A stretch of DNA of 64,000 nucleotides. It comes from Ulva prolifera (Eukaryota > Chlorophyta > Ulvophyceae > Ulvales > Ulvaceae). The first letter of the stretch is position 1; each line of letters starts with the position of its first letter. Of the stretch, positions 5,401 through 19,223 are shown in pieces. Location of the stretch: the NCBI GenBank assembly GCA_023078555.1, contig CM041196.1, positions 10,930,985 through 10,994,984 of the forward strand. Reading direction: 5' to 3'. Below the pieces are notes generated by a model, which saw only the letters and a list, made by a program, of their open reading frames with translations, searched no databases and was not told the DNA's origin. A program made the position numbers and the translations under genes.

Positions 5401-5979
5401 ACCTCAAGTGATCTCCTGTTCGAATCTGAGCCACAATCCTTGCACACCAGCTCCAACAGCTATTCTGCGTGTGCTTCACCATTTTCTGTGCTGAAAGTTG
5501 CTGTGCACTCAGTCTCACAAATCCAATGCATTCACCAGCAGCTTTTTTGCGTGCTTCGCGAATCTGCAATCCAGGTACAACACTGATCTCGTGGAGTGCA
5601 TGGCGTGGCGGTGTGGTGAGTGGTGTCGCGTGACGCTCGCCCCATGCGAGATGCCAACACCCCGAGTTTGGCTGCAAACCGGTGTGAGATAGCACACCGC
5701 TGCAATGTTTTACAAAAGAGAGATCGGAAGAACAACACCGCTGCAATCGATCGCTGTGCACTTTACATAGTGCTCCTGACATCAAGGCTACCCACACACC
5801 TTCTGCACGCATTCGCCATCGTTGATGTTGATGAGTGATGCCTGGTAGTTTGATCTGATGCCCTGCCATATGCATGCATGCAATGGCCTTGGCCCAGGGG
5901 TCTTGAGGTTGCAACCTTCACTGTCTTCTGCATGCAGATACGCTACACCGAAACCTCGAAACCATAACCTAGACACCCC
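2410..5979. other. Gene-free stretch
   Basis: No recognisable gene. Short ORFs exist on both strands but none shows a domain, a splice-consistent partner or sustained coding composition. A run opening at ATG 4684 is the best of them (about 28 codons before a weak donor) and is not convincing. A CG/CA microsatellite lies at 3266-3297. TGCATGCA-type palindromes occur at about 2685 and 5870. Confidence 0.6.
3266..3297. repeat. (CG)n-(CA)n microsatellite
   Basis: An alternating purine-pyrimidine run of gc/cg dinucleotides passes directly into ca dinucleotides. This is the kind of sequence that can adopt Z-DNA. It lies in a region without a recognised gene. Confidence 0.85.
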
Positions 5980-7463
5980 ATGGCCATCTCCAGAGCTCAC
6001 CCCGCCACGTCCGACGAGTCGTCGGCCACATCTCCACCTGAGACCAGCAAGTGCCCCAGCCCGTCCTCCGCTCTCCCCCCAGCCCAGCTGCTCACGCATG
6101 GGCACAGCCTCAATGCCGCGCCCAAGCCCAAAGCCTCCCACGGTGACCTCTCCCGCTGCATCCACCTCGCTGCCCCACTGATCGATGCCCCTGAACCGGA
6201 CTCTGACACCGGCGCAGCGCTCTCATCTCAGGCTGCCCTCTTCCACCCCCCCCAAACTCTCCACGTCTTCTCCCCTTGCAGCTCCAGCTGCACAAACACA
6301 TTCATCGGCGACCTGGGGGAGGGCTCCCAGGCCTCCTGGCTGTCACAGGACTCTAAACGTGCTGTGCATGGAGAGGATGCATGCGGAGTGTTTGCCCACC
6401 TCCCCACTCACACCCCAGGCAAGCCATCAGAGGTGTTCAGAGAGGGTAACGGAGTCCTCGGATCGCTTGAACCCAGGAGCACGAGAGCTGATGCCGCTCC
6501 GGTGGCGACCGATGTCACTGGCGGCCCCGACGGCGCGGCCGATCGGAAGTCTCTGACGTGGAGGGTGTGCCGGGCGCCGAGGCCACGCCATCGGAATCGG
6601 CAGTGCGTCTACAGGGGTGATCCGCGAGAAAGGTGTTGACCGCGCGCGTGTACGCCGCCAGCTCATCTGGAGGCAGGTACGGCTGGAATGCATGGTGCGG
6701 GCGCATGGAGATGTTGCCGGGAAGGTGGGTGGGGGCGAAGTGTGGAGGCGAGGAGGGTGGGGCGGGGGTGGCCCCGCGCGGCCGCGCCGGCGGCGGGGCC
6801 GCGCCGCCGGCGCGGCCGCGCGGGGCCACCCCCGCCCCACCCTCCTCGCCTCCACACTTCGCCCCCACCCACCTTCCCGGCAACATCTCCATGCGCCCGC
6901 ACCATGCATTCCAGCCGTACCTGCCTCCAGATGAGCTGGCGGCGTACACGCGCGCGGTCAACACCTTTCTCGCGGATCACCCCTGTAGACGCACTGCCGA
7001 TTCCGATGGCGTGGCCTCGGCGCCCGGCACACCCTCCACGTCAGAGACTTCCGATCGCGAGCTCCACGGCAGTGCCGGCGCGCGCGACAGCCACGGCGTG
7101 GTGTGGGCGCTCCCATGCGGGTGCCCACATACATGCCCCGCATGCACCGCGCTACCAGCCAGCCCTCAGGGCCAGGCCGCGAGCGGCGCGACCGCCAGCG
7201 CGGGCCTCCGCCAAAGCGCCGGCAACGGCGCTGCGCGCGCGCTCGGCTGGGCGCTGCACGCCGCTGCGCTGGCGGTGCTGTGCGGCCTGGCGGTGTCGTG
7301 GCTGGCCGTCGCGCTGCCGGCGTACGCTGCGGCGCGTGCTGCGCGACACGTGGCGCGCGTAGCGCTTCGCGTGCCGGCCTCTGCCGTGCGCAGCCTCTCC
7401 TCCGCAGCTTATGCATGCCGGGCAGGTCCATCTGCCGGCCCCCCGCCTGCTCATGAGGAGTGA
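5980..7463 (+). CDS. Hypothetical membrane protein gene interrupted by a palindrome
   Basis: Not recognised. An open frame starts at ATG 5980 with a Ser/Pro-rich, probably disordered N-terminal part of about 187 codons, and runs into the left arm of the palindrome, where it stops at 6637-6639. A second open frame covers the right arm and continues to TGA 7461-7463. It encodes a small polar domain (YLPPDELAAYTRAVNTFLAD) and then a strong membrane segment near its end (ALAVLCGLAVSWLAVALPAY). The two frames are in register across the palindrome: codon GAT CG. occurs at both borders. Either the palindrome is an insertion or artefact, or the hairpin is removed by splicing; a gtgtgc donor at 6566 and an acceptor at 6912 are in phase. 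A 69-bp in-frame intron at 7098-7166 is possible, and a strong GTGAGT at 7459 could lead to further exons. Confidence 0.4.
6540..7057. repeat. 518-bp near-perfect palindrome (inverted repeat without spacer)
   Basis: The centre lies between 6798 and 6799. Arms of 259 bases are reverse complements; I found one mismatched pair, 696/6801 in the last digits of 6796/6801, next to the centre. Both ends fall on CGATCG, itself a palindrome, and pairing stops exactly there. The right arm encodes a plausible protein stretch on the + strand and the left arm encodes the same stretch on the - strand. It could be an inverted duplication of an exon, a foldback element, or a hairpin artefact of library preparation or assembly. 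Confidence 0.93.
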
Positions 7464-9032
7464 GTCCACAACGGCGAGCCTGTATGCCATGTGCGGGTGC
7501 GTACTCATGGATGTCATGCATGTTGGACTGGCCATTGCGGTTGGATGCCGCCCATGCAGTGCGATGTATCCGATGGGGTTTCAGGTGTCGAGGACCTCGG
7601 GTGTAGCGGTGTTGACGCCTACAGAATTTCCGCTGAGTCAGGCCTGGGTGTTTTGCCGCACCTCGGCGGCCATGCACAACAGGCGCATGAACACACAACC
7701 CTATCATCGGCGCTTGACCCATGCACAGCAGGCACTTGAAGCATGCGTAGTGAGCGCTGGAATCATGCAGTGCCATCGATGCCACCCCCTTGGGCGACTC
7801 CACCCGCTTCTGCATCCCATCGGCGGTGATGTAGTCTGTGCCTGTCACCACCCGCACACATGCATGTAACCACCGGCTCTCATACATGTCACCACCCGCA
7901 CCTCATGCATGTAACCACCGGCTCTCATACATGTCACCACCCGCACCTCATGCATGCAGGCAGGCCACGCAAGTGATGCGCGTGGCTGTCCCAGAATCAC
8001 AGCCGATGCGGCCCTGCACCCCGCCCCCCCCGCCTTACCGGCAGCTGGCGCTTCAATCCGGCCGACGGAACCGAGATGGCGCCGTCTATATATGTTGAAA
8101 TAGCGCCGTTGATGTACGTTCACGCCCGTCCAGAGCAGTGGAGTTTGCACTGCATGTCGATGTGGCTGCACAGTCTATGAGGTGTTGGTGGCAAGCTGGT
8201 GGTTGATGCCATGCCAAGTGCGTCTGGCGAGAGGGCAGTGTTGACCAGATGGATGAATGAAGTTGAGTGGCACGCCCACGTGCCCAAATCGATGTTTGCA
8301 GCTGATGGCGGCAGCCACGTGGAAGCTTGCCTAGGCTGTGGTCAGACTGTGCTCGCATGTAACGCCAGTCCACGCTGGGCGCAGAGCCCTGGTCTGCAGC
8401 AGATGTGCCTGAATTACTGCGAGAAACGCTACGCATCAAGTGCTTTGGTTAGTATGCCTTGTTCTGGTGCCCGGGGACACGGGCCAAACGTGTTTCGTCA
8501 TGCTTGCATTGAAATGCGACAGTTTGCCTGGAAGGCGCCGTCCTGCTTCATTGACACACACGCCAAAGATCTCGAACCTCAAGTTGCGCTTTCAGCCGTT
8601 CAATTCTCCTTGTCTTAACGTCCAGGCAGCAGTCTACAAACGCATATGCCTGCTGCAAGCCTGGCCTCCGTGCCTGCAGCGGCATATGCAGTAATGACAG
8701 CTGCTCCGCCATGCGCAATTGGCATCTATTCTGCTGGTTAAACGTCTCCTGAGACCAAGAGCCGAGCCGTTTTCTTCCGGGTGAAGGCACCGTCGCGGAG
8801 CCTCAGAGCAGCGTCCATGCAGAGAGCGTGGCGTGGGTGATCAGGTATGGCTCTGAGTGCACACACTGACGGCAGGGCCTATGGCACAACAGAGCAGAGC
8901 CTGCGCTTAAGGCGTGCGAGAGAGAGAAGTGGATTTTGGAAAGTGCTCTCGCATTCGAACTAGATGGAAGTTGATACGTGCGTCGCGATCGAGGATTTCT
9001 CCATGATCAGTGTTGCCTGCTAGGTCACATCT
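7464..9032. other. Gene-free stretch upstream of the RNF113-like gene
   Basis: No gene recognised. It holds a 44-45 bp tandem repeat at 7844-7957 and scattered TGCATG motifs. The last part must contain the promoter and 5' leader of the RNF113-like gene, but no specific element can be assigned. Confidence 0.6.
7844..7957. repeat. Tandem repeat, 44-45 bp unit, about 2.5 copies
   Basis: The unit begins gtcaccacccgcac and carries atgcatgtaaccacc and ggctctcatacat. Two full copies and one partial copy are nearly identical, indicating a recent minisatellite. It is intergenic. Confidence 0.9.
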
Positions 9033-14628: not shown

Positions 14629-17600
14629 ATGGACTCTGTAGAGGACGAGCGCGTCGCAAGCATGCTCGAAGCCGCGGTGCCGACCCTGGCCGCTGCGCTG
14701 GCGGGCGCGGACCCCGCCACCGTCACCGCCGCGATCCACGCCGCCCTCGACGCCGCCCTCGCCCGCACCGCCGCCGCGCCCGATCCACCCCCGCCGCAGG
14801 ATCGCTGCGTGACGCCGCGCGGCGGCGCCGCGGCCGCGGCTGAAAGCGCTGCCGCAGCGCCCGTGGCGGACTCGGCGAACGAAGAGGAGGCTCGTGCCGG
14901 CGGTGCGACGGACGGGCCGGGATCACCTGCTGGAGACAAGCCTGCTCTAGCAGAGACTGGCCCGAGTCCGGTAGCGGGGCAGTCCGATGCGCCTACCCCT
15001 GCCGCCCCGGACCACCTGCAGCCTGGCACAAAGGCTCGCGCCGCGAAGGCTCGCAGAGCCCCTCCCACTTTCGAAGCGGCCACGGCCTCAGAGCCGCCTT
15101 CCCCTGCGGAGAACCCGCCACCAAAGCCTCAACCCAGCGCTGCTCCAGCCCCGCCGCCGGACGCACCCCCGGCCGCGACTCATGAACCCGCCGAGCGTGG
15201 CCGCGGCGGCACTGGGAGTGGCAAGCCCGGCCGGAACGGCAAGGGCCGCGGCAAGAAGGCCGGCCGCGGCAAACCCTGCAAAGGCCCCGGGAACACGACG
15301 GCGTCGAAACCGGCCGCCGCGAGCGCGTCGCGGTGGGGCCGCGTGGCCGCCATCCGCCCCCCGGCCGTCGCTGCGGCGGTGCATGGCCTTCACCGCCGTC
15401 TATGCGCCCTGCGTAGGTTCCTGGCGGGCGATGGCGCGCCCGGGGGGTTGAAGGCACGCCTGACCGCGGTGGCGCTGCTGCCGCTCACGGCCGTCATCTG
15501 GATGCTCGCGGCGCTGCGGCTGTACCTCGTGGTCATCGTCCCCACGGTGAGCTGCCTCGGTGACCTCTGGCTGGCGCTGTCGTTGAGCCTGACTCCTGTT
15601 CCTGTTGCCTGCCATCGTAGTCTGTGATCTGGCTGTGTGTCATTGTGTTGTCATTGTGAATGGAAAACGGGCCCTGCGTCGCTCTCCACCCGTCTGTACG
15701 CCGGCCGGCCACACATGCGTGCGGAAGTGATAATCGTAATCGTCAATACGAGTTGCATGTCCAATGGGTGCTTTTTTTTAAAGCATTGATCTGTTGGAGG
15801 ATTGCTCGTGGTAATGGATCCTCGTCTGCCAAGACTCTGCAGATCATGTGCCATCCTCGGATCTTCCGGGGCTCAGTGCAGACCACAGCGTGAAAAAGCG
15901 CGGCCGGGTGCAGGCGGCGCAGATGCTGCGGGCCCTCGTCAGGCCCGCACCGCCGCCACAGCACGGCACCGCGGCCAAGGCTCCAGCAGGTGCGCAGCTC
16001 GCGAGCGCGATGGGCTGCTCTCTCGCCCCCGATGACCCCGCACGCGCATTCGCCCAGCCGACCTGGGCCAACGGGGCGCTCTGCGTCGTGCTCACAGCCG
16101 CGCTGCTGCCGCTCGTGCTGTGCGTGCTGTGGGCGCTGCACAGCACGGCGTCCTACGCGGCTCAGCTCCTCGCCGTGGCGTCGTATAGCGCTCTCTCGGA
16201 GACTGCTGAGATTCGCGCCGCGGCTTCAGACGCTCTCTCCGGTGCGGCTGAGCTTCCCGCCGCGGCATCTCACGCTCTCTCGGACGCCGCCGCTGAACTC
16301 CACGCTGTGGCTACAAGCACTTTAACGGTTGCAGCGGAGCTGCCTGGCGTTGCGTCTGGCGCTCTCTCGGATGCCGCCGCTGAACTCCACGTTGCGGCTA
16401 CAAGTGCTGTCTCGGGTGCAGCTGAACTGCCTGCCGCAGCGTCTGGCGCTCTCTCGAACGCCGCCGCTGAGCTCCATGCTGTGGCTACAAGCGCTCTCTC
16501 GGGTGCAGCTGAGCTGCCTGCCGCAGCGTCTCACGTTCTCTCAGACGCCGCCGCTGAGCTTCGCACGGCGACGTCTGGCGCTCTCCCAGATGCTGCCGAT
16601 CTTCCTGCCGCCGCGTCGAGCTCACTGATGGGGGTGGCCGAGCGGGCGCTGCAGAGGTTCGATGACGGGCTCGTGACATCCGGGGGGCGTGCGCTGCGCC
16701 GCTTCTGCGGGTCCGCGCTCTCGTTCACCGCCGCCGTGGTGTGGCGGGTGCCGATGGAAGCCGCCGGGATCTTTGGCGGCGCGGTGTGGGCGCTGGGGGA
16801 GGGCACGTGGGCGGCCGGTGGGGCTGTGTTCGCGCTCGTCACCGGCCGCCCGTGGCTCTGCGTCGGAGCGTCGATGATGACGGCGAGCCTGTGTTACCCA
16901 CGCCTGTGGCTGGTGCGCCCCGTCCACGTGCTGCATGCTGTGTGCTGTGCGTCATGTTCGGAGCGGCACATTCCTGCAGTTGGGTGGTGCTGCTCAAGTA
17001 TGATGGCGCCGATCAGGGCGCTTTGTCCCGGTTCACCGCTGATGGTTCGGACGGATGATGATCGGAACACAGTGTCTGAGTCTCTCACTCGCATGGGCAC
17101 CACTGCTCTGTTAGCACCCAGGCGATTGGAGGTCATCCCATCGGCCACGACGATGCCGTGCATCAGCGTGGCATCTCAAAAGAGCATAGTGTGTGCAAAA
17201 ATGCAGTACCAGCGGAACGCACCACGCTGAGCCAAGGTATCCAAGCACTGGGTCCAGCGGAGCGACATTTGCCCCTTGTTTTGAAAGCACTCTGATATGA
17301 GACCGTCGCCTAGATCTGGGCCACAAGCATTTCGCATGTGGCCCCAACCAGTAGAAGCGCTACACTCCTACATGCACCAGCCGTGTGGTGCACCGACACG
17401 CTGGCGCCCAACACACGCAATGCATGCAGTTGTCCGGGGCGCCGATCCTGGCTGCCAGCCTGCACGGCGGCTGGTGGGGCGCGTTTGCCGCCGCGCTGTC
17501 GGTGCTCCTCACACTCGGTCTGCAGAGCCACGTCCTCGGCGCGCTGGCCGCCGTGCTCGCCGCCGCCGTGCTGCGCCTCATGCATGTGTACCTCCTCATC

Positions 17601-19223
17601 GTGCTCGCGGTCCTTGCGGCCGTCTTTGGGTGCTTTTTCATCGCGTTCTGCCTCCGCGAGCGGCAGGAGGAGGCCGGCGCGGGGGCCAGTGGCGCGAGCG
17701 GCGCGACGTACCGGAAGCTGCGGAACCGTGCGCCGCGGGGCGCGGACGCGGCCGTCGCGGCGGTGCTCGCCGCAGAGGACTATTACCAGGTGGGCCTCCC
17801 ATCTCCGCCTTTGAATTCGGAGCCTGCACACGTGGCGTGCGCGGTGTGGTGGGGTTTTTTTTTTTGTGGTAGTACTGGCGTAATCGCCAGCGTGGGGACT
17901 GTGCTGACAGGTGTCACAAAGAGAACCCCCCTCCCCCCCACACACGCTTCATGGCCCTTTGCATCGGCAGACTACTGGAGCTTCTGTGGCCTTGTATCTA
18001 GGCGTGTCATTGAAACAGGTAGTCAAGTGGTGGACACCCGTCAGGGTAGTGGTGGACAGCAGGACTGATGTCGGGGTATTGGCGCTTGCATCAGCTTCGA
18101 TTCCCACCCTGTGTATCTGGTCTCTCTCTCCGGCTTCCCAGCGGAGCACCAAATCTGTGTGCTGCGCAGTATCGTGGTGATGGACGCAGTCCGTGCAAAG
18201 CACGTGGGAGTGCAGTGTGTTGGGATGCGTACCCGTGGCAGGGCCACCCCTGCAGGCGTGTCCGTCTGGCGTGTAGGTGCTGGGACTGGACGCCCGGACG
18301 GAGCCAGACGCCGCGGACATCCGACGCGCGAAGCGCCGCCTCTGCCTCGCGACGCATTCCGACAAGACCGCCAGCCCCGGCGCCGCCACCGCCTTCAACG
18401 TCGTCATCGCCGCGGCCGAAGTCCTGCTCGACCCGGCGATGCGTGCGCGCTACGATGCTGGCATGCGTGCCGCCGGCGGCGCCCCCGCCCCCGCCGCCGC
18501 CGCCGCGGCGCCGGGATGCCACGACGCCGGGAGCTGTGACTGCTGTGGCGCTGACCTGGCGGAGCCGCCAGGTATCTACGTGCCTGTCAGGTGTGCGGCA
18601 TGTCCTGTTTACCCCTGTGGCCGCTGTGGCCGAGTCGGCTCGCGAGGGTGGGCCATTCGCTGCATGCGTTGGCGAACCGCTTCACGCGCACATATACAAT
18701 GGCGGCTCGCCCCCGGCTCCGTCGCTGGCCGCCTGCCCCTTCTCCCACAACAACGCAAGTGGCACTCGCGCGTTGCAGACCGAACAGCTTGTGTGCCCAC
18801 TCTGTCAGCAGAAGTGTGCTTCACAATACCCCTTGTCCCACCGTTGTCACACATTGACTGCGGCCCGCATTGCACAGACGCGAGCGCCCGGAGTGCGGCT
18901 GCAGGTTCTCGCCGCATGAGGGGGTTGAAGAGGTGTATCTGGAGGCTATCCCGGACACCCCCCATGAGCGCTGGTGCTCCTCCTGCCGCACCACCCACCC
19001 CGTCTCCGACGGCACCGTCTGGCAACTGCCGTCGCTGTGGCGAAAGCAGTTCGCGATCATGATCGACGGCCGCGTGTACGACCTCACGCCCCTCGCGGCG
19101 CCCCTCAACCTCGCGCAGGCCGTGCGCTTCGGCATGCATGAGCCCTTTGGCATCCCGATGACGTCGACGGCTCCGAAGAAGGCGGGGCCGGGGCCGCGCA
19201 AGAAGAGGAGGGGCCGCCGGTAG
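14629..19223 (+). CDS. DNAJC14-like membrane J-domain protein with Jiv90 domain
   Basis: Exons 14629-15546, 15914-16912, 17430-17789, 18277-18590 and 18878-19223 join in phase to 978 codons, ending at TAG. The order is a disordered basic N-terminus (GKGRGKKAGRGK); a membrane helix at about 275-305; another at about 360-382; ten 14-15-residue Ala-rich repeats (about 400-540); a cluster of hydrophobic helices at about 615-718; the J domain at about 757-822, opening with DYYQVLGL across a splice junction; a Cys-rich link (CDCCGAD); and the Jiv90-like part with RWCSSC, GRVYDL and a final KKRRGRR. This order matches DNAJC14 and its plant relatives, ER-membrane Hsp40 proteins that handle membrane-protein quality control or trafficking. 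The usual HPD of the J domain reads HSD (ATHSDKT), so Hsp70 stimulation may be altered. Exon 1 and its start are the least certain part. Confidence 0.85.
16185..16605 (+). repeat. Coding tandem repeats in the DNAJC14-like gene
   Basis: About ten units of 42-45 bases, each beginning near gctctctcg, encode 14-15-residue units such as ALSGAAELPAAASH and ALSDAAAELHAVATS. Two unit types alternate, so the DNA period is close to 87-90 bases. The units are predicted to be amphipathic Ala-rich helices. Confidence 0.85.

Follow-up and report, generated by a model that had tools for sequence, protein, structure and literature searches.

A near-perfect, spacerless palindrome of 518 bp occupies positions 6540-7057 of the window (the whole 64,000-nt stretch of DNA analysed here, C1:10930985-10994984). 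We read it as a recent inverted duplication confined to one locus, which would have arisen through a double template switch within an apparent protein-coding gene and would have disrupted that gene; to this reading we assign a probability of roughly 0.58. The geometry of the palindrome, the CGATCG at both of its borders, the near-perfect identity of its arms, its single locus and the stop that it brings to the upstream frame are all direct observations.

Geometry, fold and rarity of the palindrome

The left arm (6540-6798, minus strand) and the right arm (6799-7057, plus strand) are each 259 nt long and directly abut. The sole mismatch between them lies at arm position 257, the third pair from the centre, where G6796 faces G6801; it is visible base by base, the inverted-repeat listing having rounded the complementarity of the arms to 100%. 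The innermost bases, GGCC at 6797-6800, are self-pairing and are flanked by the mismatch, and an equivalent description is a 6-nt centre, GGGCCG (6796-6801), enclosed by 256 perfect pairs. At the outer ends, pairing stops exactly at CGATCG on either side (6540-6545 and 7052-7057, both found in the sequence), and the first three bases beyond the arms are unpaired; between the two borders the word does not recur. This hexamer, which we considered as a possible target-site duplication, is self-complementary and forms part of the arms themselves. The base-by-base inspection thus bears out the first-pass annotation, which had described a 518-bp near-perfect palindrome with two 259-nt arms, a mismatch near the centre and CGATCG ends.

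The palindrome has a GC content of 71%, and as RNA it is predicted to fold into a single 256-bp stem closed by a 6-nt loop, with an energy of -645.8 kcal/mol, as against a mean of -259.65 kcal/mol (standard deviation 6.72) for 100 shuffles of the same sequence. Additionally, a short hairpin can be read by eye where the right arm meets the centre (6799-6815, CCGCGCCG-C-CGGCGCGG); in an extended, imperfect form, it pairs 6793-6806 with 6808-6821 at 93%.

Chance is excluded as an origin, since in 244,000 bp, comprising the window and 18 comparison loci of 10 kb drawn from ten contigs (180 kb outside the window, or ~0.2% of the genome), no other perfect arm with a spacer of 0-10 nt exceeds 18 nt. 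When copies up to 3 kb apart were admitted, with 16-base seeds merged and words built from one or two different bases excluded, the next longest inverted stretch was 36 nt. This stretch, in comparison locus L005 (8846-8881 with 8980-9015, spacer 98 nt), is the longest other example in the 180 kb outside the window.

The first-pass annotation had proposed a genome-wide search for the arm, and this has now been run: across 88.9 Mb in 44 contigs, the 259-nt arm gave two matches, both of them the palindrome's own arms, although the search skips very common words, such that missing further matches do not amount to absolute absence. Likewise, the 560 nt upstream and the 843 nt downstream (7058-7900) each gave one DNA match in the genome, at their own locus. 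Given these matches, the palindrome is not a repeat family; nor did the search yield the further copies expected of a foldback or MITE-type transposable element, and a transposon was rejected on that account. A plasmid or phage origin was rejected because collections of both were without a match to the palindrome at E <= 1e-5, and a known RNA family because Rfam gave no match anywhere in the window at gathering scores.

The apparent gene and the probable native arm

The palindrome is flanked by two open frames on the plus strand, which we infer to be the parts of one real gene, now inactivated. The 5' part (5980-6539) begins with an ATG at 5980, and its frame (ORF 5980-6639, 219 aa) continues for 32 codons into the left arm before meeting a stop at 6637-6639. 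The downstream part (7058-7463) encodes, as judged by eye, a hydrophobic segment near its C-terminus and ends with a stop at 7461-7463; its frame is open from 6621 to that stop and spans the entire right arm (stop-to-stop ORF 6621-7463). A gene broken in this way would yield either a truncated protein or, provided that the locus is transcribed, an mRNA carrying a 256-bp hairpin.

Several measures bear on which arm is native. Under a codon model whose training set was 32 long ORFs from elsewhere than the window, the distal part of the right arm (6861-7056) scores 0.142 bits per codon, a value reached by 5.4% of 3,322 stop-free comparison stretches of like GC; the downstream part scores 0.174 per codon and the upstream ORF only 0.074. 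A cruder codon score is less clear: an antisense frame of the right arm, which holds one stop, reaches 8.1 bits and the sense frame 6.9, and an antisense frame of the upstream ORF, which holds three stops, reaches 21.6 and the ORF itself 15.7. The plus-strand skew of the right arm is -0.315 (C-rich) and that of the left arm is its reverse; the upstream ORF is similarly skewed in its first half (-0.415), though its second half, at -0.051, is not C-rich. Taken together, the open downstream frame, the codon score and the C-rich skew modestly favour the right arm as the native copy, with the left arm probably its inverted copy. Against a template switch, the codon evidence is itself modest, and the second half of the upstream ORF lacks the C-rich skew.

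Neither 6621-7460 nor 5980-6636 has a Pfam match at E <= 1, and a search of the PDB with 6621-7460 returned one match only, at E 0.17. Searched by itself, the 80-residue peptide of the arm matched PF00159 at E 0.42, a candidate that was rejected because its 11.1 bits fall below the cut-off of 28.7. Genome searches for paralogues returned the gene's own locus and, for the upstream part, a match on contig C8 at E 0.99. In a local tblastn against 23 records, the place on C8 (L024) reached E 0.010 for the upstream part, with 35% identity over 51 aligned positions, and L014 reached E 0.20 for the downstream part. Both were taken for chance, and a convincing paralogue was not found among these searches.

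The frames also speak to the state of the gene before the palindrome arose. Removal of one arm (259 nt; 259 mod 3 = 1) leaves the upstream and downstream frames unjoined, and this counts against a template switch, for which an intron or lost sequence must then be assumed. Removal of 512 bp, with one CGATCG kept, instead places the flanks in one frame, reading A-D-R-E across the site. This agreement could mean that the ancestor ran upstream-CGATCG-downstream and received an inserted palindrome, or it could be a one-in-three coincidence accompanied by an intron or lost sequence. In itself, the restored frame slightly favours insertion over a template switch. Such an insertion, in which ready-made palindromic DNA (a foldback element or captured hairpin) would have entered at a single CGATCG that was duplicated at both ends, is consistent with the presence of that word on both sides; we nevertheless consider it unlikely. 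No other copy was found in the 88.9 Mb of the genome, plasmids and phages offer no source among their collections, the frame agreement would arise by chance in one case out of three, and, moreover, the downstream frame stays open through the right arm, which is unexpected for a foreign insert.

A probable double template switch and its rivals

The order of the segments, namely, flank A, inverted copy, native copy and flank B, requires two switches. The following course of events would produce it, the order of the switches being our reconstruction: a nascent strand, having copied the upstream part, would stall at or after CGATCG and pair anew with the other strand at the CGATCG of the right border (7052-7057); it would then copy backwards over ~256 nt to the GC-rich inner end, where the small GC hairpin at 6799-6815 offers a plausible place for the return switch; thereafter, copying would proceed forward through the right arm. 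A reverse-complement copy of nearby sequence is present, with 256 perfect pairs in adjacent arms, and the flanks differ from one another, pairing ending at the arms and each flank having its single match. Further features that argue for a template switch are that identity is broken at one central pair only and that pairing stops at a common 6-mer. Perfect inverted repeats of this kind are a prediction of the four-point template-switch model put forward by Loytynoja and Goldman (PMC7954356, in excerpt). Against it stands the length of the copied segment: the 2->3 fragments of the great-ape gold-standard set have, according to the excerpt, a median of 12 and a maximum of 128 (PMC7954356), and the ~256 nt copied here are double that maximum.

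The near-perfect identity of the arms says that the palindrome is young, or has been converted, or is an artefact. According to the last of these, a chimeric fold-back or misassembly added the inverted copy during assembly, library preparation or amplification, and the real chromosome has one arm, an explanation that we regard as doubtful, though deserving of serious consideration. Perfect identity over 256 bp is precisely the expected product; moreover, amplified long-read libraries are rich in artificial palindromes, and in an unamplified control, too, 0.5% of the reads were classed as palindromic (PMC6218980, as excerpted), the resemblance being that local sequence is inversely duplicated. 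A single fold-back, however, yields flank-arm-arm'-flank', whereas here neither flank is the reverse complement of the other: pairing ends at the arms, and flank-to-flank inverted pairs in 5500-8200 reach at most 18 nt among the matches listed. Unlike the artificial library palindromes (as the same excerpt describes them), the sequence here exits into a different, single-locus flank. An artefact would consequently need two switches, one of them sharing just 6 bp, presumably below the overlap that an assembler uses, and consensus ought to outvote a rare chimeric read, depending on the sequencing method used. The palindrome is also interior to its contig, lying at 10.94 Mb of the 12.74 Mb of C1 (12,744,784 bases), with the nearer end ~1.8 Mb away; this distance, the end of pairing at the arms and the single-match flanks uphold the earlier view that it is not a foldback at a contig end. 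Furthermore, there is no sign of a systematic artefact, as the 180 kb covered beyond the window (~0.2% of the genome) contain no second such palindrome.

A functional role for the hairpin was also weighed. The locus might express a 256-bp dsRNA, processed to small RNAs with the gene itself as their target, and be a very young small-RNA gene of the inverted-duplication kind; we judge this very unlikely. The fold of -645.8 kcal/mol is in its favour, as are Piwi-domain matches at two places in the genome (five of six over the family cut-off, one of six containing a stop), and inverted duplication is mentioned as a source of miRNA genes (PMC5511227, in excerpt). Conversely, a second copy of the arm was not found in the whole-arm search of the genome (very common words skipped), the window has no Rfam match at gathering scores, and just one of three scored RNase III candidates is over the cut-off, the exons having been searched apart. 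One match over the cut-off is fewer than the two RNase III domains of a Dicer, which may be absent from this genome, divergent or split by introns. The sole RNase III match over the cut-off, despite the Piwi domains, lies at G000:C6:1673082-1673360. Matches to tubulin in the genome come in pieces, as if from exons, and with the Piwi-domain matches they mark the genome as eukaryotic. A beta-tubulin frame is closest to PDB chain 6u42_1, which comes from Chlamydomonas, and our guess is accordingly a green alga.

Scarcely probable, in our estimation, is that the hairpin is being kept within a nuclear gene, either as a self-silencing dsRNA switch or because it is spliced out or otherwise bypassed, with arm-to-arm conversion maintaining its perfection; the analyses of sequence, copy number and fold, which are blind to such conversion, gave no sign of special maintenance. 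A hairpin kept in this manner would, by analogy and with equally slight probability, represent a nuclear counterpart of the coding palindromes of mitochondria. The double template switch accords with the option of great youth, which fits best among those raised by the first-pass annotation (very young, specially maintained or artefactual): the arms share 256 identical bp, the palindrome is at one locus, and it apparently breaks a gene.

Relation to known palindromes and other features of the window

The palindrome falls within a known class of mutations, and what makes it noteworthy is chiefly its length, its GC content and its clean borders. It resembles short-range template-switch mutations in requiring two switches and in comprising a reverse-complement copy of nearby sequence that forms a perfect inverted repeat; it differs from the great-ape set in that ~256 nt would have been copied, against a maximum of 128 (PMC7954356, in excerpt). 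With the coding palindromes of Nematomorpha mitochondria, it shares perfect inverted repeats, a similar length (theirs are up to 284 bp) and a location within protein-coding genes; those palindromes, as the excerpt has it, are mitochondrial and numerous, and both of their arms code for conserved protein (PMC6649704). Here, in contrast, there is one in 244 kb, it resides on a 12.7-Mb contig, and its left arm stops the upstream frame. A coding palindrome of the Nematomorpha type was accordingly rejected, as on an unspliced reading no single frame passes through both arms, given the stop at 6637-6639.

Like the human PATRR11 and PATRR22, the present palindrome is nuclear, several hundred bp in length, near-perfect and spacerless, but whereas the PATRRs are >90% AT, it is 71% GC and is situated in an apparent gene (PMC4940405, in excerpt). 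In a survey of 118,019 genomes, perfect arms reach hundreds of thousands of bp, and the perfect inverted repeats of eukaryotes mostly have AT-rich, GC-poor arms (PMC13155455, as excerpted). Since most eukaryotic examples are AT-rich, a palindrome of 71% GC in a eukaryotic gene lies at the uncommon end of the known range. No report of an algal nuclear gene with such a palindrome was found in the literature among the matches listed, which does not prove absence.

If real, the palindrome offers an inverted duplication of unusual length and cleanness whose switch points can be read (a shared 6-bp word and a GC hairpin), and it would be useful for testing both the reach of template-switch copying and the survival of long, perfect, GC-rich palindromes in nuclear chromosomes. 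Should it instead be an artefact, it marks a local mistake in the assembly and a gene model that only seems broken.

Three further features of the window may be recorded. Some 790 bp downstream of the palindrome, a tandem repeat with a 45-bp unit (7843-7956; 2.6 copies, 97% match) contains TGCATG words. An imperfect tandem repeat of 87 bp (16205-16617; 4.7 copies, 77% match) lies inside a long open frame, 15815-17230, and its translation is Ala-rich and repeated. Finally, the open frame at 18277-19059 has a match to the DnaJ domain (Pfam PF00226) at E 1.7e-7, with 31.7 bits against a cut-off of 27.8.
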